Source of the DNA: a bacterium
GTDB lineage: Bacteria; Patescibacteriota; Minisyncoccia; Moranbacterales; UBA9337
DNA: 42,129 bases
Assembly: GCA_021159185.1 (NCBI GenBank)
Contig: JAGGSH010000016.1
Coordinates: 1 to 42,129, forward strand
Direction of reading: 5' to 3'
Part shown: in pieces, positions 556-37,863 of the stretch
Layout: each line of letters starts with the position of its first letter
Position numbering within the stretch: position 1 is the stretch's first letter
The notes under the pieces: model-generated
What the model was told of the DNA's origin: nothing
The model's input: the letters and a program-made list of their open reading frames with translations, nothing else
Databases searched by the model: none
Translations under genes and position numbers: made by a program

Positions 556-1177
556 CAAATAGTTCATTTCAAATTGTGTTTCGGATTATGTAATTCAGAA
601 TGGCAGTTATGGCAAACAAGAATGCATTTCTTGATCTCAGTATCAATTCGGGATTGCTTTCGATTTGATAAAGATCTCATATCTAGCTGGAAACTCTTTT
701 TTTTCTGGTTCGGTATGGTGAAAAGTAAGCGCGGAAAGATTTTTGTTGTATCCACAAATAGAGCAGCATCCTCCTAATTTTTTTACAAGAAACATTTTCC
801 TTTTTAACCCTCGAGCTTGTTGTGCTTGATAGGATTGAAGGGCTTTATTCTTGCAAGAAAGAGAACAAAATTTTTTTTGCTTGCCACCTAATGGTTTACC
901 GCAAATTATACAAGTTATGATTTTTTTCATAACTTAATTATAGCACAAGTTGAATGATTTTAACAGGGCTGCTTGAGAAGTAATTTTCAAGTGAATATCT
1001 GTCAAACTCGGGGAAGTCTAAGGTTATTTAATATAACTATGTTAATCCCGAGCCAAGCCTCGCTATAGCGAGGAAGGTGTAGAGACTAGACGGCAGACTC
1101 CATAATTTATGATTTATGGATGAAGGGATAGTCCAGCTCACAAATTCAAAAGAAGTTGCGAAAGCAATAGTGAGAAG
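556..1177 (+). mobile_element. Group I self-splicing intron in tRNA-Met(CAU)
   Basis: 5' exon ends in T and intron ends in G. Core strings: ATCCCGAGCCAAG; GTAGAGACTAGACGGCAGACTCC; AAGGGATAGTCC. P7 is GACTA(1084-1088)/TAGTC(1129-1133); P8 is CCATAA(1100-1105)/TTATGG(1114-1119). Confidence 0.9.
564..930 (-). pseudogene. Intron-encoded HNH homing endonuclease on the strand opposite to the intron, frameshifted at an 8-A run
   Basis: ORF 643-930(-) ...CSICGYNKNLSALTFHHTEPEKK, continued in another frame by 564-755(-) SFQLDMRSLSN...EIKKCILVCHNCHSELH. Joined, they form one HNH domain; the frame changes at T697-T704. Confidence 0.8.
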
Positions 1178-3031: not shown

Positions 3032-5782
3032 ATGTCTGGAAATAAACGGCTGCTTCTTATTGACGGCAACGCGATTATCCATCGGGCTTATCACGCTTTG
3101 CCGCCGCTGACAACCAAGAAAGGGGAATTGGTTAACGCGGTTTACGGCTTTGCTTCAACTTTGCTGAAAGTTATTGATAAATTTCAGCCGGATTATATCG
3201 CGGCTTCTTTTGATTTAGCTGGTCCGACTTTTCGCCATAAAAAATTTAAAGACTATAAAGCCACGCGAGTAAAAGCACCCGACGAACTTTACGAACAAAT
3301 TCCCAAAGTTAAAGAAGTGACTAAGGCTTTTAATATTCCCATTTACGAAAAAAAAGGTTTTGAAGCAGATGATGTGATCGGCACTTTAACTCACAACTCA
3401 CAACTCAAAACTCACAACATAAATATTGTTATCGTGACGGGAGATTTGGACACTTTGCAGCTAGTAAATGACAAAACAAAAGTTTATACTATGCGGCGGG
3501 GAATCAGCGACTCGGTTTTGTATGACGAAAAAAAAGTTAAAGAACGCTATGGATTAAAACCGGAACAGTTGAAAGATTTTAAAGGTCTGCGCGGCGATCC
3601 GTCCGATAATATTCCGGGCGTAAAAGGGGTTGGAGAAAAAACGGCCTCCAGCCTTCTGCGAGAATACGGCACTCTGGAAAATGTTTATAAAAATCTAGAT
3701 AAGATAAAAAAGGCGGTTAAAGAAAAGCTGGAAAGGGACAAAATGCAGGCCATTATGTCTAAAGAATTAGGCACGATAAAAACAAATGTTCCAATTAAAC
3801 TTGATTTGAAATCTTGCGCCACTCAAGATTTCAATCGCCAAAAAATCGTTAATCTTTTTCAGGAACTGAATTTTTTTAGTTTGATTAAGAGACTGCCTAA
3901 TGGTGATGTTAATGACGCGAATATTGATGCAAATAATGCGGATACGCGAAAAGGTCGGGAAGGAAGCAACGATGGGGTAAAGGATTTAAAATATGAAGTG
4001 GTTAGTGGTGTGAATCTAGGCGAATTTATTAAAGAATTAGAAAAGCAAAAAGAGATTGCGCTGGCTATTGAGTGTTCTCATCCCAACCTTCTCCCGGAGG
4101 GAGAGGGAGCTGATGTAAAAGGCGCAGCTTTTTCTTGGAAAACGGGGAGGGCTTATTCCGTGGAAAGCAAAGATAATAATTTGAAAAAACTAAAGTCTAT
4201 TTTAGAAAATAAAAACATAAAAAAAATTGGCTATGATTTAAAAAGCGTTTACAAGAATTTAAAAGAGCGGGGAATAAAGCCGAACGGTATTTATTGGGAT
4301 GTAATGCTGGCGGCTTATGTTTTGAATCCGGGAAGCAAAATAGAATTTTCAAAATTGGTTTTAGAGGAGCTGGGAGAAGAATTGCCGGAAGAGAAGGCGG
4401 GACAGTTGAATTTAGGCATTCCCGGGCAGGAAAGCCAATCGCAGAAAATTTGCCAAAAGGCGGATTATTCCTTGAAACTCAAAAGCATTTTAGAGAGAAA
4501 AATAGAAGAAATAAGCCGAAAACAAAAAGGCATCGCGGGAAATTTAAAAACCGTATTTGAAAAAATTGAAATGCCCTTGGTGGAAGTTTTGGCTGAAATA
4601 GAATTAGCGGGTGTTAAGGTAAATCCTTTGATTTTAAAAGGCATTTCGGAAAAAATGGCGGCCCGGATAAATAATTTAGAAAAATCAATTTATAAGCTGG
4701 CTGGCAGAAAATTTAACATTAATTCTCCCAGCCAGCTGGCCGAAATTTTATTCGCGATATTAAAATTGCCGACTGATGACATCAGAAAGATTAAAACGGG
4801 ATTTTCCACCGCGGCGGCGGAATTGGAAAAGCTTCGCGATAAGCACGAAATTATCGGGAAAATTGAAAGCTATCGCGAACTATTCAAACTAAAAACCACT
4901 TATCTGGACGCCTTGCCTGATATGATAAGCGAGGATTTCCGCATTCACACTACTTTCAACCAAGCGGTGACGGCCACCGGGCGGCTTTCTTCGGAAAATC
5001 CGAATCTGCAAAACATTCCCAAACGAACGGACATCGGGAAACTTGTCCGCACGGCTTTTGAAGCCGAAGAGGGTTTCGTTTTCGTGTCGGCGGATTACTC
5101 CCAAATTGATTTGAGGGTAATGGCGCATATGAGCGGCGACAAGAAATTAATAGAAACTTTTATGGCGGGGGAGGATGTCCATCGGGCAACGGCGGCGGAA
5201 GTTAATAAAATTACTTTATCGCGGGTTACGGAAAAAATGAGAAGCGCCGCCAAAGCGCTCAATTTTGGAATAATTTACGGAATGAGCGCTTTTGGTTTTG
5301 CCCAGGCGGCAAAAGTCAGCCGCGACGAGGCTAAAGAATTTATCAGCCGTTATTTGGAAAAATTTCCTCAAGTGGCGGAATTTATTAAAAACACCAAAGA
5401 ACTTGCCCGCAAAAACGGTTTTGTGGAAACGGAGACGGGCCGCCGCCGCTATTTGCCGGAAATAAATTCCCCTAATTTTCAAGTGGCCGGCGCGGCGGAA
5501 AGAATGGCAATTAATATGCCCATCCAAGGACTGGCGGCGGATATTGTGAAGCTGGCGATGATAGAGGCGTATCGTTATATTACAAGCGATGCCAACCTGC
5601 GAACACAAAAGAACGCCGCGAAGATGGTATTGCAGATTCATGACGAGATAATTTTGGAAGTGCGAGAAGATATGGCGAAAGAAGTTTCCGGGAAAGTTAA
5701 GGAAATTATGGAAAATGTCTACAAACTAAAAGTCCCGCTTACGGTGGATGTGAAGATCGGAGATAATTGGGGAGAGTTATAA
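3032..5782 (+). CDS. polA: DNA polymerase I
   Basis: N-terminal 5'-3' exonuclease (LLLIDGNAIIHRAYHAL, DPSDNIPGVKGVGEKTA); polymerase motifs DYSQIDLRVMAHMSGD, AAKALNFGIIYGMSAFG, QIHDEIILEV. Confidence 0.97.
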   Translation: MSGNKRLLLIDGNAIIHRAYHALPPLTTKKGELVNAVYGFASTLLKVIDKFQPDYIAASFDLAGPTFRHKKFKDYKATRVKAPDELYEQIPKVKEVTKAFNIPIYEKKGFEADDVIGTLTHNSQLKTHNINIVIVTGDLDTLQLVNDKTKVYTMRRGISDSVLYDEKKVKERYGLKPEQLKDFKGLRGDPSDNIPGVKGVGEKTASSLLREYGTLENVYKNLDKIKKAVKEKLERDKMQAIMSKELGTIKTNVPIKLDLKSCATQDFNRQKIVNLFQELNFFSLIKRLPNGDVNDANIDANNADTRKGREGSNDGVKDLKYEVVSGVNLGEFIKELEKQKEIALAIECSHPNLLPEGEGADVKGAAFSWKTGRAYSVESKDNNLKKLKSILENKNIKKIGYDLKSVYKNLKERGIKPNGIYWDVMLAAYVLNPGSKIEFSKLVLEELGEELPEEKAGQLNLGIPGQESQSQKICQKADYSLKLKSILERKIEEISRKQKGIAGNLKTVFEKIEMPLVEVLAEIELAGVKVNPLILKGISEKMAARINNLEKSIYKLAGRKFNINSPSQLAEILFAILKLPTDDIRKIKTGFSTAAAELEKLRDKHEIIGKIESYRELFKLKTTYLDALPDMISEDFRIHTTFNQAVTATGRLSSENPNLQNIPKRTDIGKLVRTAFEAEEGFVFVSADYSQIDLRVMAHMSGDKKLIETFMAGEDVHRATAAEVNKITLSRVTEKMRSAAKALNFGIIYGMSAFGFAQAAKVSRDEAKEFISRYLEKFPQVAEFIKNTKELARKNGFVETETGRRRYLPEINSPNFQVAGAAERMAINMPIQGLAADIVKLAMIEAYRYITSDANLRTQKNAAKMVLQIHDEIILEVREDMAKEVSGKVKEIMENVYKLKVPLTVDVKIGDNWGEL

Positions 5783-5805: not shown

Positions 5806-5918
5806 TTACTCACTTATATGCTATCGCTTATAAGTGAGTAGATTTTGCGATGGGTCTTCTATTTTCAGCCCAAAATCCAACACCCTTTTCCTTTATCTAA
5901 ACCAAGAATAGCTAACTT
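5806..5918. repeat. Dispersed ~115-bp intergenic repeat (palindrome copy 3 plus tail), partner of 9986-10100
   Basis: ATTACTCACTTATATGCTATCGCTTATAAGTGAGTAGATTTTGCGATGGGTCTTCTATTTTCAGCCCAAAATCCAACACCCTTTTCCTTTATCTAAACCAAGAATAGCTAAC closely matches the 9986 copy. Confidence 0.85.
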
Positions 5919-5951
5919 CAAATAGTTAACTTCGCTTGACAAATCTTTTAC

Positions 5952-7383: not shown

Positions 7384-7474
7384 TTCCGCAACTGGTTTGA
7401 GGCTCTGTTATCTTGTTCCCTTAAACTTTTATCCCTTGGATTCTTTGATGCTTTAGCGCTTTGAATCTAGGGGA

Positions 7475-7506
7475 TTTTTTATTCCCAAATTTTTGCGTTA
7501 TTTTTT
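7475..7506 (+). repeat. 32-bp exact direct repeat, copy 1 (copy 2 at 10161-10192)
   Basis: TTTTTTATTCCCAAATTTTTGCGTTATTTTTT at both sites. Confidence 0.85.
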
Positions 7507-7607
7507 GGGAAAACCGTATTTTAATAGCGGATGTGAAGATTGGGGAAGAATGCGAAAAAAGAGACAAAAACATTCCATAAACCTCAAAAATTTGCTATAA
7601 TATAAGT

Positions 7608-28779: not shown

Positions 28780-28854
28780 TCCGAGGTAGCTCAACGGTAG
28801 AGCAGTTGGCTGTTAACCAATTGGTTGGCGGTTCGAATCCGCCCCTCGGAGCCA
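28780..28854 (+). tRNA. tRNA-Asn(GUU)
   Basis: TCCGAGG/CCTCGGA acceptor, anticodon loop TGTTAAC, GGTTCGAATCC T-arm, encoded GCCA. Confidence 0.93.
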
Positions 28855-28869
28855 AATTGTATGTTCGGC

Positions 28870-29470
28870 GTTTGTTGCCTCTCCCGCCACGGCGGGATCG
28901 AGCGCCCTGCGGGCGCTAAGGGCTGATTTTGAAAGGATTTGCCACGCTCCGCGTGGTTCAAAAAACAATTCCCGTTCCCGCAAAATGCGATTCAAGCCAA
29001 TCTTTTTTAGAAAATCTTTTTTCTCAAAAAGATTTTCCTGCAAAGCGATAATCGCGGCTTGTTTACTGGCTAAAATGAATTTTTTGGCAGGTTCGAGCCA
29101 ATGATTGCCGTTTTGCTCAAAATCATTTAATTTCTCGGAAATCTCAATCTTTTGGTTGAGGATTTTTTGTTTTTTGGCGGTGTATTCATCTTTGGTAATT
29201 GTTCCGTCTAAGTATGTATCCAAAAGTATGTCCAACTTATCCTCAAGCTCTTTAATTTGAGATTTTAGATTTTGAGCAAAAACGGCTCCGTCTTTGGCTT
29301 CTTGCTCTTTGTCTTTTTCCAATTCAGCAATCATCTTGTCAGCCCAAGACGGAGGCAAAGAAACTTTCTGAATTTGTTGGTTTATCTGATCCGCCAAAAC
29401 TTCCTCGCGGATGTATCCTTGTGAAGAGTTATCCCGTTTTTTAGTGCGAAACTTCCTAATTTTGTTTGAC
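28870..29470 (-). pseudogene. Truncated large serine recombinase (zinc-ribbon/coiled-coil C-terminal remnant)
   Basis: Reverse-strand reading RTKKRDNSSQGYIREEVLADQINQQIQKVSLPPSW...DKLDILLDTYLDGTITKDEYTAKKQKILNQK resembles the C-terminal part of large serine recombinases; the N-terminal catalytic domain is absent and an in-frame TAG lies upstream. Confidence 0.75.
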
Positions 29471-29767: not shown

Positions 29768-32284
29768 ATGGCAAATTCAAAAGAAGCAAAGGCACGAATA
29801 AAAATCAACAAATTACTTGAAGAATCAGGTTGGAGATTTTTTGATACAGAAAAAGGACAAGCGAATATTCAACTTGAGCCAAATGTAAAAATCACTCAAA
29901 AAGATATTGACGCTTTTGGTGAAGATTTTGAAACTACTAAAAACGGTTTTATTGATTTTTTACTTTTGGACGACAAAGGTTTTCCGCTTGTTATTTTGGA
30001 AGCCAAAAAAGGAGAAAAAGATCCGCTAAACGGGAAAGAACAAGCTCGCCGATACGCAAAAAATGAAAATGCTCGTTTTGTTATTCTTTCAAATGGCAAT
30101 CTACATTATTTTTGGGATTTGGAACGAGGCGATCCTGAAATAATTACCGAATTTCCAACTCAAGAATCTTTACTACATCGCCTTGACTTCAAGCCCGACA
30201 ACAAACGCCTTGCCGATGAAGAAGTTAATGCCGATTACATCGCACTAACACAAAATCCTAATTTTAAAGATGATCCTCGTTATCAAGACGAAGGAACTCG
30301 CACAAAATATTTATGGGATGAGGGTTTGCGAATTTTGCGTCTTTATCAACTCAAATCAATTCACGCTTTGCAAAAATCCGCTGAAAGCGGAAATGATCGT
30401 TTTCTTTTTGAAATGGCGACTGGGACAGGAAAAACACTTATTTCTGCCGCGATTATCAAACTATTCTTACGAACAGGAAACGCAAAAAGAATTTTGTTTT
30501 TAGTAGATCGCTTAGAGCTGGAAGACCAAGCGCAAAAAAACTTTATTCAGTATTTAAGTAATGACTTTCAATCTGTAATTTATAAACAAAATCGTGATGA
30601 CTGGAAAAAAGCGGATATTGTCGTTTCTACTGTACAAAGTTTATCGGCGCAAGATAAATACAAAAAACTATTCTCGCCGACTGATTTTGACTTAGTTATT
30701 GCCGATGAATCACATCGCGCCATTGGCGGAAACTCCCGAGCCGTTTTTGAATATTTTATCGGCTACAAACTTGGACTTACCGCAACTCCAAAAGATTATC
30801 TCAAGAATGTTGATCCACAACAATTGTCCGCCAAAGACCCGCGAGCGTGGGAACGAAGGCAACTTTTAGACACATATACAACTTTTGGCTGTTCAAATGG
30901 TGAGCCAACTTTTAGATATAGTTTACTTGACGGAGTGAAAGACGGATATTTGATAAATCCAATTGTTTCTGACGCTCGCACTGATATTACCGCCGAATTA
31001 CTTTCAGAAAAAGGCTACGCCGTTATGGTAGAAAATGAAGACGGTAAAGAAGCAGAAGAAACATTTTTCCAGAGAGATTTTGAAAAGAAATTCTTTTCCG
31101 AAAAAACTAATCGTGTGTTTTGCCAAACCTTTCTTGAAAATGCCTTAAAAGACCCAATCAGCGGAGAAATAGGCAAAAGTATTATTTTTTGCGTAAGCCA
31201 AAAACACGCTTCAAAAGTTGCGCAAATGCTTAACAAAATGGCAAGCCAGCTTTGGGCTGATAAATATAATTCTGATTTTGCGGTGCAAGTTACATCACAC
31301 ATTGCGGACGCTCAACAATTCACAATCAATTTTGCAAATAATCGTCTTAATGGAACTAGCAAATTTTTAGAAGGATATAAAACAAGTAAAACAAGAGTTT
31401 GCGTTACTGTCGGAATGATGACAACTGGTTATGATTGCCAAGATATTCTCAATCTTGCTCTTATGCGACCGATTTTTTCACCAACTGATTTTATACAGAT
31501 TAAAGGACGAGGAACACGAAAATTTGTTTTTGAATATACTGATGAATATGGAGAAAAGCATAAACACGAAAAAGAAAATTTTAAACTTTTTGATTTCTTT
31601 GCTAACTGCGAATATTTTGAAGAAAAGTTTGATTATGATGAAATTCTAAAATTACCAGTCAAACAAAAAGGGACTGGCACAGAAGGACCAGTTGGCGTTG
31701 ATATTGATGAAATAGAAGTTTTTGATCCTGACAAAGTAAAAACACTTACTGAAAAGCCAATTGGTGTTGAGGGAATGAAAGTAGACCGACGACTTTTTGA
31801 AAAAGCGCGCGAAGAATTACAAGAAGATGAAGAAATTAAAACTGCCGTGAAAAATGAACAATGGGATAAAGCTGTGCATATTGTCCGTAAGAAATATGAA
31901 GACAAGCCAAAACTTTTCTTAAATCTTGAAAAAATCCGTAAAAGCGAAAATCTTGACCGCCGTTTATCTTGGCGTGAATTTTTAGAAAGGATTTTTGGTT
32001 TTATTGACGGTTTCAAAGACAAAAACGAACTTTTGGAAGAAGAATGCGAAAAGTTTATTTCTATTCACAAACCAGAAAGCAAATATGTTCCGTATATCAA
32101 AAATTATCTCAAAGCATATGTTACGGATGAAAAGTTTAGAGATATTATCAATAACAAACACTTTGCGGAGCTTAATGTTTATGCGGGATTTACAATGTCA
32201 GAGTTTAAAGCGTTAAACGGATGGCGCGAAACTGTACCAGAATATGTAAAAGATTATGTTCCCGTTAATCAATTTATGAAATAA
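29768..32284 (+). CDS. hsdR: Type I restriction endonuclease subunit R
   Basis: FIDFLLLDDKGFPLVILEAKK nuclease motif; FEMATGTGKTLISAAII; IADESHRA; YKLGLTATP; VGMMTTGYDC; QIKGRGTR. Confidence 0.96.
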   Translation: MANSKEAKARIKINKLLEESGWRFFDTEKGQANIQLEPNVKITQKDIDAFGEDFETTKNGFIDFLLLDDKGFPLVILEAKKGEKDPLNGKEQARRYAKNENARFVILSNGNLHYFWDLERGDPEIITEFPTQESLLHRLDFKPDNKRLADEEVNADYIALTQNPNFKDDPRYQDEGTRTKYLWDEGLRILRLYQLKSIHALQKSAESGNDRFLFEMATGTGKTLISAAIIKLFLRTGNAKRILFLVDRLELEDQAQKNFIQYLSNDFQSVIYKQNRDDWKKADIVVSTVQSLSAQDKYKKLFSPTDFDLVIADESHRAIGGNSRAVFEYFIGYKLGLTATPKDYLKNVDPQQLSAKDPRAWERRQLLDTYTTFGCSNGEPTFRYSLLDGVKDGYLINPIVSDARTDITAELLSEKGYAVMVENEDGKEAEETFFQRDFEKKFFSEKTNRVFCQTFLENALKDPISGEIGKSIIFCVSQKHASKVAQMLNKMASQLWADKYNSDFAVQVTSHIADAQQFTINFANNRLNGTSKFLEGYKTSKTRVCVTVGMMTTGYDCQDILNLALMRPIFSPTDFIQIKGRGTRKFVFEYTDEYGEKHKHEKENFKLFDFFANCEYFEEKFDYDEILKLPVKQKGTGTEGPVGVDIDEIEVFDPDKVKTLTEKPIGVEGMKVDRRLFEKAREELQEDEEIKTAVKNEQWDKAVHIVRKKYEDKPKLFLNLEKIRKSENLDRRLSWREFLERIFGFIDGFKDKNELLEEECEKFISIHKPESKYVPYIKNYLKAYVTDEKFRDIINNKHFAELNVYAGFTMSEFKALNGWRETVPEYVKDYVPVNQFMK

Positions 32285-32291
32285 TAAAAAT

Positions 32292-33722
32292 ATGAAAAAA
32301 TTTATTGAATTAATATTAAATGTACCTGAAGAAACTCAAACAATTGAGTTTAAGCGCCTTAATGGTGATAAGGTCGTAAGAAAAATTATTCAAACTATTG
32401 TTGCAATGGCAAATACTGATGGAGGAATAATTGTTTTAGGTATTGAGGATCCAGAAAAATCAAAACTAAAAGGTGAAGAAAGAATTTTTGGTATAGAAGA
32501 AAATAAAGAGCTTTACGACGAGATATTTCATGAAATAAAGAGAATAATCCCCCCAATATCAAATTTGGAGCCAGATTTATATAAAATAGATGAGAAAAGA
32601 ACTGTTGCTATTTTAAGTATCCCAAAGGCAACAGAGTGTTTTTATTCAATTGATAATCAGGTTTATATTAGGCTTCATAAAAGTAACAAAAAACTTACTC
32701 CACAAGAGATTGTAAAGTTTAATTATGCTAAGGGATTTGAAAAAGCCGATAAGGAACTTGTTGATATTGATTTTGAATTATTAAAAACGCATTATTTTGA
32801 TGACTGGAGAAAAAATAGAAAAATATCGGAGGCAAACATTGAGGATATTTTATTCAAAACTGGTTTAGCTAGAAAAAACAAAGAAGGAATATTACACCCA
32901 ACAAGAGCGGCGGTATTGTTATTTGCACAATTTCCAACCGACTTACTTGAAACAAAATGCTCCATTAGGATTATTCAACTAAGAGGAACTATAGAAAAAT
33001 TTGGTGAGGCTCCAAACTATTTAGGTACGCCAAAAACCATAGGAGGACCAGTTATTGATTTAATAAAAAACAGTCAAGAATATGTACTTAATCTTTTAAA
33101 GTCTGGCATTGTTGTTCGCTCTGGTTTTGTAAATACATATAGAATTCCAGAAAGAGCTGTAAGAGAAGCAATTACAAACGCGGTTATTCATAGAGATTAT
33201 CATTTAAAACGAGATATAGAAATTCGTATTTATGAAGATAGATTGGAAATCTTAAACCCTGGACTCTTTCCCTATAATATAACAAAAACAAACATTGGTT
33301 TTGTTCGCGCCGATGGTGAGAGAAACAACTTGCTTGTTAAGCATTTAAGGGAATTTCCGGAACCACCAAACTTGAACTTAAATGAGGGAGTACGAGCAAT
33401 GCGAGAGGAAATGAAAAACAATAATTTATATCAACCAATTTTTTTCACATATCCAATTTATGAAGATTCGGTGAAAGTAGTACTCCTCAATGAGGAACAG
33501 CCAACCGAGTGGGAAAAAATTAAAAAATATTTAGAAGATAAAAAATATATTAACAATAAAATTGCGAGAGATATTACCGGAGTTGTTCAGATACATAAAA
33601 TGTCTAGAATGTTTAGAAAATGGGTTGAAAAAGGATTATTATTAAAAATTGATGGAGAATCTAAAAACCCAAGAGACACGAGATATAAATTAGCTGATGT
33701 TAATGAAATTAAAGATATATAA
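32292..33722 (+). CDS. AlbA_2/Schlafen-type ATP-binding protein (RecG-like C-terminal region)
   Basis: ETQTIEFKR...IVAMANTDGGIIVLGIED; RAVREAITNAVIHRDYHLKRDIEIRIYEDRLEILNPG. Confidence 0.9.
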   Translation: MKKFIELILNVPEETQTIEFKRLNGDKVVRKIIQTIVAMANTDGGIIVLGIEDPEKSKLKGEERIFGIEENKELYDEIFHEIKRIIPPISNLEPDLYKIDEKRTVAILSIPKATECFYSIDNQVYIRLHKSNKKLTPQEIVKFNYAKGFEKADKELVDIDFELLKTHYFDDWRKNRKISEANIEDILFKTGLARKNKEGILHPTRAAVLLFAQFPTDLLETKCSIRIIQLRGTIEKFGEAPNYLGTPKTIGGPVIDLIKNSQEYVLNLLKSGIVVRSGFVNTYRIPERAVREAITNAVIHRDYHLKRDIEIRIYEDRLEILNPGLFPYNITKTNIGFVRADGERNNLLVKHLREFPEPPNLNLNEGVRAMREEMKNNNLYQPIFFTYPIYEDSVKVVLLNEEQPTEWEKIKKYLEDKKYINNKIARDITGVVQIHKMSRMFRKWVEKGLLLKIDGESKNPRDTRYKLADVNEIKDI

Positions 33723-33806: not shown

Positions 33807-36191
33807 ATGCTTGATCAAACTACAAAACGAAAAATTGACTCCGCAAGAAATATTCTTGTCGGCAAAGTCCCCGACCCAAAAGCACAAGTAGAGCAAATCA
33901 CGACGGCACTTGTTTATAAGTTTATGGACGACATGGACAAAGAGTCGGAAGAACTTGGCGGAAAGGCGAGATTTTTTACAAATGGTTTTAGTCAATATTC
34001 GTGGACGAAACTTTTGGACAAAAAACTTTCAGGACAAGAGCGGCTTGATCTTTATGTTCAGGCAATCACGAATATGTCCAAAAATCCGCATATTCCACAA
34101 CTGTTTCGTGATATTTTTAAAGGCGCATTTTTGCCATTTCGTGATCCGCGAACGCTTACTTTATTTTTGAAAGAGATCAATGAATTTTCTTATGACCACA
34201 GTGAAGATTTAGGAAATGCTTTTGAATATTTGCTTTCAATTCTTGGTTCACAGGGCGACGCGGGGCAATTCCGCACTCCGCGACATATTATTGATTTTAT
34301 TGCCGAAGTGATTGACCCAAAGAAAAATGAAACAATTCTTGACCCTGCTTGTGGAACGGCTGGATTTTTGATTTCTGCCTACAAACATATTTTGAAAAAT
34401 CATGACGGGCTAGATAATAAAACAGGAAAACCAACAAATAAAGAAAAAAACCTAACTCCCGAAGAAAAAACAAAATTGATGAATAATATTGTCGGTTATG
34501 ATATTTCGCCCGATATGGTGAAGTTATCTTTGGTGAATATGTATCTACATGGTTTTTCCAATCCTAAAATTTATGAATACGATTCTTTGACAAGTGAAAA
34601 GCGTTGGGACGAAACTTTTGATGTAATTATGGCAAATCCGCCATTTATGACGCCAAAAGGTGGAATACAACCGCATAAAAGATTTTCTATTCAAGCCAAT
34701 CGCGCCGAAGTGCTTTTTGTGGATTACATTATGGAGCATTTGAGCATCAAAGGGCGCGCGGGAATTATTGTGCCAGAGGGAATAATTTTTAAAGGCGACA
34801 AAGCCTATAAAGTGCTTCGTAAAAAACTTGTAGAAGACGGACTTTTTGCAGTAGTAAGTTTACCCGCTGGAGTTTTCAATCCTTACGCTGGAGTGAAAAC
34901 CAGTATTTTGTTTTTTGATAACCAAGTCGCGAAACGAACTGATAAAATTTTGTTTGTCAAAGTAGAAAACGACGGTTTTGATCTCGGCGCGCAACGGCGA
35001 CCGATTGATAAAAATGATTTGCCAAAAGCAATTGAGATTTTAGAAAGCTGGAAAAAAGGCGAAAAGCAAGAAAATGAAATGGCTTTGTGGGTGGAAAAAG
35101 AAAAAATCGCTGAAAGTGGTGATTATAATTTGACTGGTGAGCGGTATCGGGAAGTTGAGGTTTATAAAAATCAGAAATGGCTGATGGTGGAGTTGGGAAA
35201 TGTTTTAGATGTTAATTTTGGAGAAAGAATCACTAAGAAAAATAATCTCGGCACAAAATACCCTGTATATGGTGGTGGTGGAGAAAGCTTTAGAACTGAT
35301 AATTATAATCGCGAAAATGAATTTGTTATATCAAGATTTGCAATGGCAGAAAATTGCGTTCGTTTTGTGAACGGAAAATTTTGGATGATGGACTCAGGTG
35401 GAACATTTTCTATCAAAAAAGAATATGAAGATAAGCTAAATAAGACTTTTGTTGGTAAAGTTTTATTGGGGAAACAGAAACAAATATATTCTTGTGCAAG
35501 AGGTAATGCACAGAAAAATCTAAATGTTGATTATTTTAAAAAAATCAAAATCCCACTCCCACCACTTTCCGTCCAAAAAGAAATTGTGGAGCAGATTGAA
35601 GTTAAACAAAACGCCATCAATCACGCCAAAGAAGTTATTAAAAATCTCGAGAGAGAGAGACGATATTTTGGCCAAGAGCTTAGAAAGTTAGAAGATGTTG
35701 AAATGGTGGAGTTGGGAAAAATAATAAAAACCATAACACCACCAAAGAAAATTAAGAAGAGTAATTTTTGCAAGAAAGGTAGCTTCCCAATCATTGATCA
35801 ATCTCAAAATTTTATTGCTGGTTGGACTGATGATAAAAATGCAGTTGTTAAAGTGCAAAAACCATTAGTTATTTTTGGTGATCATACTTGTATTTTAAAA
35901 TTAGTAGAGCAAGATTTTGCACAAGGCGCTGACGGGATTAAGATTTTAGAAACAAAAGAAAATATATTGCCTAAATTTTTATATTATTTTTTGCAAGCAA
36001 ATCCTGTTGATGATGGAGAATATAAAAGACATTTCACAAAATTAAGAAAACTAAAAATCCCCCTTCCACCCCTCGCTATCCAAAAACAACTTGTTGCTGA
36101 AGCGGAAAAAGAAGAAAACATCATCGCCTCCAACCGCCGCCTCATTAAGATTATGGAGCGGAAAATTGAAAAAGTGTTGAACACGATTTAA
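33807..36191 (+). CDS. Fused type I HsdM methyltransferase and HsdS specificity protein (two TRDs)
   Basis: LDPACGTAGFLISAYKH (SAM motif), FDVIMANPPFM (NPPF); then two HsdS half-units ending IKIPLPPLSVQKEIVEQIE and LKIPLPPLAIQKQLVAEAE. Confidence 0.93.
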   Translation: MLDQTTKRKIDSARNILVGKVPDPKAQVEQITTALVYKFMDDMDKESEELGGKARFFTNGFSQYSWTKLLDKKLSGQERLDLYVQAITNMSKNPHIPQLFRDIFKGAFLPFRDPRTLTLFLKEINEFSYDHSEDLGNAFEYLLSILGSQGDAGQFRTPRHIIDFIAEVIDPKKNETILDPACGTAGFLISAYKHILKNHDGLDNKTGKPTNKEKNLTPEEKTKLMNNIVGYDISPDMVKLSLVNMYLHGFSNPKIYEYDSLTSEKRWDETFDVIMANPPFMTPKGGIQPHKRFSIQANRAEVLFVDYIMEHLSIKGRAGIIVPEGIIFKGDKAYKVLRKKLVEDGLFAVVSLPAGVFNPYAGVKTSILFFDNQVAKRTDKILFVKVENDGFDLGAQRRPIDKNDLPKAIEILESWKKGEKQENEMALWVEKEKIAESGDYNLTGERYREVEVYKNQKWLMVELGNVLDVNFGERITKKNNLGTKYPVYGGGGESFRTDNYNRENEFVISRFAMAENCVRFVNGKFWMMDSGGTFSIKKEYEDKLNKTFVGKVLLGKQKQIYSCARGNAQKNLNVDYFKKIKIPLPPLSVQKEIVEQIEVKQNAINHAKEVIKNLERERRYFGQELRKLEDVEMVELGKIIKTITPPKKIKKSNFCKKGSFPIIDQSQNFIAGWTDDKNAVVKVQKPLVIFGDHTCILKLVEQDFAQGADGIKILETKENILPKFLYYFLQANPVDDGEYKRHFTKLRKLKIPLPPLAIQKQLVAEAEKEENIIASNRRLIKIMERKIEKVLNTI

Positions 36192-36194
36192 TTT

Positions 36195-37586
36195 ATGGAT
36201 GATCTAAAGAAATTCAAACAATACTTTAATCGAGATTTTTGGCGAGCTTTTCAAGACAAGCAGTCTTTTTTTGATATACCAAAGAATAAAGCGAACAAAA
36301 ACGCATTTGTTGAAAATTTATATTCGGAAATACAAAAGCGAAAGTATTACCCTTCCGTCCCGCAGTGTTATATTGACCGCGACAAAGGAAACGGAGTTAC
36401 AAGAATTGTGCCAGTTTTTACGCTCAAAGATTATTGCGTCTATTATTACTGCATTAAAAAAATTGAGGATAAAATTGCTTACAACCGAATAGAAAATACT
36501 TTTGGCGGGTGGACTTTGGGGGGACTAATGAGAAAAAATGAAGATGATGAAATGGAAAAAAGGAAAAGGCACTTTAACCGCAAAGAGGATTTTATCGCTG
36601 AACTGCATGGAATATCTGTTAGCGAATATTCTTTCAACCCTGCGGCGTGGGCTAAAGCTTATGGTGATTTAAACGCGAAGTTGTATGCTACGGCGAAAGC
36701 GAGGAATTACAAATATCTCGCCGAACTCGATATCGCCAATTATTACGATTCAATTCGTTTGGATATTCTAGAAATGAGAATTCGCGAATTAGTAAACGAA
36801 GAACACGCAGATATAGTTAGCTTGCTTTTCCATTTTTTGAACTATTGGAACAGAAATACAAATCTATATAACAAGCAAACCGTTGGTATTCCTCAAGATG
36901 CTATGGGCGACTGTTCCCGAATTTTGGCGAATTTCTATTTACAGCCATACGATAAAATTGTTTTTGATTTATGCAAGGAAAATAAATGTAAATATTTGCG
37001 ATATGCAGATGATCAATTTCTGTTTTCTGAAGACAAAAACAAGTTTCATATCTTAATTTTTAAGATCTCTAAAGCACTCAATTCTTTTGGATTATCTGTC
37101 AATCAGAAAAAGGTTAAGGTTAGCACAACGGAAGATTTGATAGATTATAGATCGTTTAAAGTATTTGATTTGCTCAAAAACGACGACGACAAAAGAGATA
37201 AAGAGAAAGTTGAGAAATTCGTAGATTATTATATCGAATTACTTGATAGCTCCGGGTTATCCAATATCAAAGGCAACGGAACCCCATTGCTCAATAGGGC
37301 ATTGTTTTGTCCCGCACTTCATAGTATAGATATCTCGAAAAGAACCAAGTTGATGAGTTGTTATTTGGATGATGAATATTTAAAAGATGCGAGAGCAATT
37401 CATCTTGAGAAAATATACAAATTGCTCACTAAAGTGGATAAGCTAGAGTTTATAAAAAAGCTCAATTCTCTTTCAGAGAAATTGATTCATAACGCATTTC
37501 ATTACGAGTTATTAAATTTTTATAGAAGGAATAAAATTGATAGTAAAAAAATAGTAAAGAGAATTGAGAAATTGAGCAAAATCTAA
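36195..37586 (+). CDS. Reverse transcriptase (Abi/UG-like defence-type candidate)
   Basis: Motif A YLAELDIANYYDSI, motif B GIPQDAMGDCSRILANFYL, motif C YLRYADDQFLF, then LNSFGLSVNQKKVKV; begins 3 bp after the hsdMS stop. Confidence 0.92.
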   Translation: MDDLKKFKQYFNRDFWRAFQDKQSFFDIPKNKANKNAFVENLYSEIQKRKYYPSVPQCYIDRDKGNGVTRIVPVFTLKDYCVYYYCIKKIEDKIAYNRIENTFGGWTLGGLMRKNEDDEMEKRKRHFNRKEDFIAELHGISVSEYSFNPAAWAKAYGDLNAKLYATAKARNYKYLAELDIANYYDSIRLDILEMRIRELVNEEHADIVSLLFHFLNYWNRNTNLYNKQTVGIPQDAMGDCSRILANFYLQPYDKIVFDLCKENKCKYLRYADDQFLFSEDKNKFHILIFKISKALNSFGLSVNQKKVKVSTTEDLIDYRSFKVFDLLKNDDDKRDKEKVEKFVDYYIELLDSSGLSNIKGNGTPLLNRALFCPALHSIDISKRTKLMSCYLDDEYLKDARAIHLEKIYKLLTKVDKLEFIKKLNSLSEKLIHNAFHYELLNFYRRNKIDSKKIVKRIEKLSKI

Positions 37587-37589
37587 CCC

Positions 37590-37860
37590 CATCCACCACC
37601 CTTTTTAATTTATAGCCTCGCCCCAGTAGTAGAAATCCCATTTCACTATAGGACAGGCAAAAAAATCGGGCACTGCTATCCAGCGGGATAAACTCCGCGG
37701 AGGCGGGCGGAAACGCGCCTTTTGCGAAGACAGGCAAAAAGCGCCGGAACGCATAAGGCCGCAAACATATCGCGCTCTTTGATGCGAAGGCGGTTCAATA
37801 TCTGAAAAGATTTAAAGAATGCTTTGGCTTAGGAGTGGCTAAACAGAGCAGTAGATTACT
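37590..37860. other. GC-shifted noncoding segment, candidate structured RNA or island boundary
   Basis: No convincing ORF; direct repeat GACAGGCAAAAA (GGACAGGCAAAAAAATCGGG and AGACAGGCAAAAAGCGCC) and several short inverted repeats; lies directly 3' of the RT. Confidence 0.35.
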
Positions 37861-37863
37861 TTT

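Follow-up and report, generated by a model that had tools for sequence, protein, structure and literature searches.

The window, i.e., the whole stretch of 42,129 nucleotides analysed here, contains a restriction-modification (R-M) operon that ends in a reverse transcriptase (RT) gene. All genes of this operon lie on the forward strand. They encode an EcoAI-like HsdR-type restriction subunit (29768..32284; Pfam ResIII, 1e-38, and HSDR_N), which scores 250 bits against the NCBIfam EcoAI family, under the cut-off of 550; an AlbA_2/HATPase_c_4 accessory protein (32292..33722; Pfam SLFN_AlbA_2, 3e-17, and HATPase_c_4, 1e-11); an HsdM-HsdS fusion, in which an N6 methylase is joined to two specificity domains (33807..36191; PADLOC MTase_I; Pfam N6_Mtase, 1e-58, HsdM_N, and Methylase_S in two stretches); and, as the final gene, the RT (36195..37586), which starts only 3 bp past the end of the fused hsdM-hsdS gene. 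Since hsdR, hsdM, and hsdS are all found, the operon is of type I. A promoter scan gave no excess of sites over shuffled sequences; judging from the gene spacing, the RT is probably co-transcribed with the R-M genes, and its translation may be coupled to that of hsdM-S. The only free non-coding room beside the RT is an intergenic stretch of 277 bp that follows it on the same strand (37587..37863), beyond which lies a gene for a SWIM-motif protein, with a Pfam score slightly below the cut-off.

The R-M island adjoins a minus-strand ORF (28813-29397) that overlaps a tRNA-Asn (28780-28854) and by eye is a candidate C-terminal remnant of a serine recombinase; a tblastn search with the recombinase of another locus, L034, gave no match there. 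At L034, a complete serine recombinase adjoins the R-M/RT operon. At the island ends at tRNA-Asn, repeats of at least 12 bp are absent apart from A/T runs. Elsewhere in the window, a tRNA (524-1218) has its anticodon loop split by a group I intron (Rfam Intron_gpI at 949-1158, 65.8 bits). ARAGORN, run with introns allowed, reads a 622-bp intron and Leu(caa), a different joining of the exons would give the anticodon CAU, and an ORF in this stretch (643-930, minus strand) has only weak zinc-finger-like Pfam matches. Dispersed repeats of approx. 50-80 bp, 68-87% identical, occur at 2716, 11754, 16315, 17900, 18599, and 22611; they lie in or at protein-coding genes, where in-frame reading yields NSKSQIPN/KLQITNYK-like inserts.

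The RT gene begins with ATG and encodes 463 aa. Motif A, DIANYYD (residues 179-185; 36729..36749), stands within the context LDIANYYDSI and is followed by motif B, GIPQDAMGDCSRILANFYL (residues 231-249; 36885..36941), and by the catalytic YADD (residues 270-273; 37002..37013), whereas the stretch ENTFGGWTLGGLMRK occupies residues 100-114 in the N-terminal part; the ORF and all of these elements were found where the earlier note had placed them. The active site is intact, as D179, D185, D272, and D273 are invariant in 10 homologues, as are G231, Q234, S241, R242, L244, A245, N246, Y248, and L249 of motif B. Pfam finds RVT_1 (E 8e-14) and no other domain. The N-terminal region of approx. 170 residues described in the earlier note does precede motif A; however, RT-class profiles align from about residue 4, and the region therefore resembles RT fingers, not an extra domain. 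Purifying selection on the gene is strong (dN 0.04-0.13 between relatives; dN/dS 0.03-0.05 in the two pairs with estimable dS), and therefore the ORF is not a chance one. In most pairs, synonymous sites are near saturation, with four-fold identity of 0.34-0.39.

On profile scores, the RT is firmly assigned to a named UG/Abi class, UG13b: the PADLOC model RT_UG13b (PDLC03750) matches residues 4-462 along profile positions 3-429 of 430 with 461.6 bits (E 7e-139), more than 350 bits ahead of the next family, UG21 (110.3 bits), and UG13b is the best PADLOC model in all 10 homologues scanned. The earlier description of a stand-alone UG/Abi-like RT was right as to type but not as to "stand-alone", since the gene is the last of a type I R-M operon. 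No functional description of UG13b, and no experiment on it, was found in the open literature searched. The class is nevertheless already known, and it is the operon context of this RT that is informative.

UG/Abi RTs fall into classes. Class 1 enzymes synthesize DNA with no nucleic acid as template, Class 2 enzymes use cis-encoded ncRNAs, and Class 3 enzymes bear nitrilase or phosphohydrolase domains (PMC12632851, PMC13275509, PMC13174585); among Class 2, DRT2, DRT9, and DRT10 rely on a cis-encoded ncRNA (PMC12632851, PMC12483538). The RT of the window, with RVT_1 as its sole Pfam domain, carries neither of the Class 3 domains. For a diversity-generating retroelement (DGR), comparison of the window with itself gave no adenine-biased template/variable repeat pair; this search covered the whole window, and the remainder of the genome was compared with the last 371 bases at the RT's 3' end as query. 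The best retron model reached 55.5 bits against a cut-off of 235, upstream room is limited to 3 bp, and no msr/msd RNA family matched. A group II intron RT is likewise not indicated (71 bits against a cut-off of 300), and no group II RNA reached its gathering score. These results bear out the earlier statement that DGR, retron, and intron parts are not in view.

Comparison of 13 UG13b loci, the window included, extends this conclusion to any conserved RNA beside the gene. When the DNA is aligned with that of the four closest relatives, similarity begins between the ATG and approx. 6 bp upstream of it and ends by the stop codon. With synonymous sites near saturation, flanks free of constraint would be too diverged to align, but a conserved RNA would still align. 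At four loci there is no room on either side of the RT (L002, -8/6 bp; L003, 3/4 bp; L007, -4/6 bp; L031, 44/51 bp). Around the RT of the window, no Rfam family reaches its gathering score, and the 277-bp gap, which is single copy in the genome and folds modestly better than its shuffles (z -1.79), has no similarity to the flanks of the relatives. Nor does the search favour an RNA hidden within the ORF, as a synonymous-conservation scan gives no sign of RNA-like constraint (permutation p 0.53-0.94). With similarity bounded by the ORF, RTs wedged between their neighbours, and no internal constraint, DGR, retron, group II intron, and Class 2 are all unsupported. The earlier note regarded the template RNA as unknown and thereby presumed that there is one; the 13-locus comparison leaves a conserved neighbouring template RNA no place, and a template-independent enzyme is therefore at least as likely. 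That an RNA template would find no space next to the RT suggests, as far as sequence comparison can, that DNA may be made without a template.

The predicted structure of the RT was compared with those of known classes. An AlphaFold2 model of the whole protein has a pLDDT of 74, and when its Foldseek matches are ranked by E-value, DRT4, DRT9, UG15, DRT6, Abi-P2, and AbiK lead, with low TM-scores (0.36-0.44 by query); the matches also include group II and G2L4 RTs. The C-terminal region (residues 319-463; 37149..37583), modelled on its own by AlphaFold2 with a pLDDT of 87.5, is all-helical and helical-repeat-like. In Foldseek, a designed helical-repeat protein ranks first for this region but falls short of significance (E 0.035), and no Abi or DRT structure is among the 50 matches listed for it. 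For this reason, the alphaRep domain that marks the C-terminus of Class 1 enzymes is only suggested here by the model. Class 1-like chemistry is favoured by elimination of the other classes.

The RT has evidently crossed phyla. According to contig labels, RTs 79-86% identical to that of the window occur in Patescibacteria (L002), Doudnabacteria (L003), Sedimentisphaerales (L004), and Melioribacter (L005), all of them metagenome bins; the L005 label is less sure, as the contig is of 4.6 kb and the RT reading frame is broken. Pyruvate kinases of the planctomycete (L004) and Melioribacter (L005) genomes share only 41% identity with their counterpart in the window genome. It follows from this difference that the RT moved horizontally between phyla. 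Its presence is sporadic: among the genomes sampled, it was found in 3 of 380 Patescibacteria (own genome counted), 2 of 384 in the window genome's own class, 3 of 396 in the phylum of L005, and 1 of 343 in that of L004. No relatives were found in viral contigs or phage records. A tree was built within UG13b, in which long branches leave the deep forks unsure.

Directly downstream of the RT, attC-like hairpins, one site each, lie at L005 (3088-3206) and L006 (7524-7659); their scan scores exceed those of all 20 shuffles, and their fold z is about -4. No integrase was confirmed at either site, and a scan of the same type found no such integron site at the RT of the window. Carriage of the RT on an integron-type cassette is conceivable at these two loci. 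The L006 RT, from Gracilibacteria, is also flanked by inverted repeats (5839-5930 and 7461-7530; 26 nt perfect, 28 nt at 89%) and bracketed by the direct repeat TGCAAACGTTGTA at 5832 and 7646.

R-M partners recur at 4 of the 13 UG13b loci, i.e., type I systems in the window, L002, and L007 and an HpaII endonuclease with Vsr upstream of the RT in L005; at the other nine, R-M genes are not adjacent. Between the window and L002, the RTs are 86% identical, but HsdMS is only 41% and HsdR 42% identical, and the RT therefore entered this position in the two operons independently. In L007, whose RT is 52% identical, the RT comes after hsdM, hsdS, and a small gene and is followed by hsdR, all unlike those of the window. 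Viewed from the R-M side, no RT was seen near window-type HsdM-S in other Patescibacteria (49-76% identity). The equivalent slot is visible in 8 of the 11 nearest HsdM-S relatives, each with another gene there; in L037, L041, and L045, the view stops before the slot. Given R-M partners at 4 of 13 loci and HsdM-S relatives devoid of the RT, the RT is an optional cargo of such operons.

Taken together, the evidence is best explained by a catalytically intact UG13b RT that is carried as cargo at the end of a type I R-M operon and defends against phages by making untemplated DNA, an explanation whose chances we consider to be about even. A phage-defence role is inferred from class and context, and by analogy with Class 1 Abi/DRT systems, the enzyme is presumably a mobile single-gene defence RT whose DNA synthesis needs no dedicated RNA template encoded nearby. 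Probably expressed with the R-M genes, it would start such synthesis upon phage attack, and priming might come from a residue of the enzyme itself, as is often the case in Class 1 (AbiK, Abi-P2, DRT4, and DRT6). The conserved Y43, Y51, Y84, and Y248 are candidate priming residues. The DNA product, or a protein-DNA adduct, might then halt growth or trap phage proteins, so that the RT would act as a second line once restriction fails. A bolder version, in which UG13b is a self-sufficient, template-free DNA writer that inserts repeatedly behind the specificity genes of restriction operons as a fail-safe for evaded restriction, R-M and RT forming one layered unit, is doubtful at best.

Other explanations have to be weighed against this one. 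It is possible, albeit rather unlikely, that the enzyme is an ncRNA-templated defence RT resembling DRT2, DRT9, and DRT10, with its RNA in the 277-bp gap, within one of the adjoining genes, or at some other place in the genome. The gap is structured and GC-rich, DRT9, an ncRNA user, is among the top structural matches, some relatives have free non-coding room, and an RNA encoded in trans, or one poorly conserved, would escape the flank comparison. Nonetheless, the gap lacks a counterpart in the relatives, the four wedged loci leave no room, and neither an RNA-family match at gathering score nor synonymous constraint in the RT was detected. Sporadic presence (3 of 380 sampled Patescibacteria), cross-phylum spread, and repeated R-M partners, which are typical of defence cargo, make it unlikely that the RT is a housekeeping or repair polymerase comparable to the G2L4 RT, with an incidental R-M neighbourhood. 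In favour of such a role, the L031 RT (3726-5069, minus strand) has as its neighbours a NUDIX gene and an elongation-factor-G-like gene of 701 aa, far from any defence gene seen, the L033 RT likewise lies among ordinary genes, and group II and G2L4 RTs are among the structural matches.

The RT could also be a working part of the R-M machine that, for example, acts on restriction ends or is triggered by anti-restriction. Tight junctions with hsdM-S or with a gene behind hsdS at three type I loci, and with Vsr/HpaII at a fourth, would fit this proposal, but a fixed interface should lead to co-evolution, whereas the R-M partners are unrelated or approx. 41% identical; moreover, R-M relatives of the window lack the RT and most UG13b loci lack R-M neighbours. 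We regard this as quite unlikely. Finally, homology limits within a few bp of the ORF might be expected of a self-moving gene, whose RT copies its own message and pastes the copy into operons. However, with synonymous sites near saturation, unconstrained flanks would look unrelated regardless, and Pfam finds no endonuclease domain, no target-site repeats were found, and the RT gene is single copy in its own genome, all of which renders such a gene very improbable.

For UG13b, a named class of defence RTs, the comparison predicts that the RT ORF alone suffices and that no cis RNA is needed. It is also a class in which the same RT enters divergent restriction operons independently and crosses phyla, ultra-small Patescibacteria included. 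Among UG13b RTs, that of the window is a full-length member that nothing separates from the others, its R-M slot being a matter of context rather than a family trait. With Class 2 DRTs, it shares the UG-type RT core, and DRT9 is among its structural matches, but a cis ncRNA is theirs, and none was found at the window RT. The Class 1 RTs (AbiK, Abi-P2, DRT4/UG15, and DRT6/UG12) are its top structural neighbours in Foldseek; like them, it is a single protein in which an RT is joined to a helical C-terminus, with no cis ncRNA found, although its C-terminal region is shorter and has no significant match to any solved protein. As accessory cargo of type I R-M operons, it fills the slot behind hsdM-S where R-M relatives carry other genes; the difference is that the cargo here is a reverse transcriptase.
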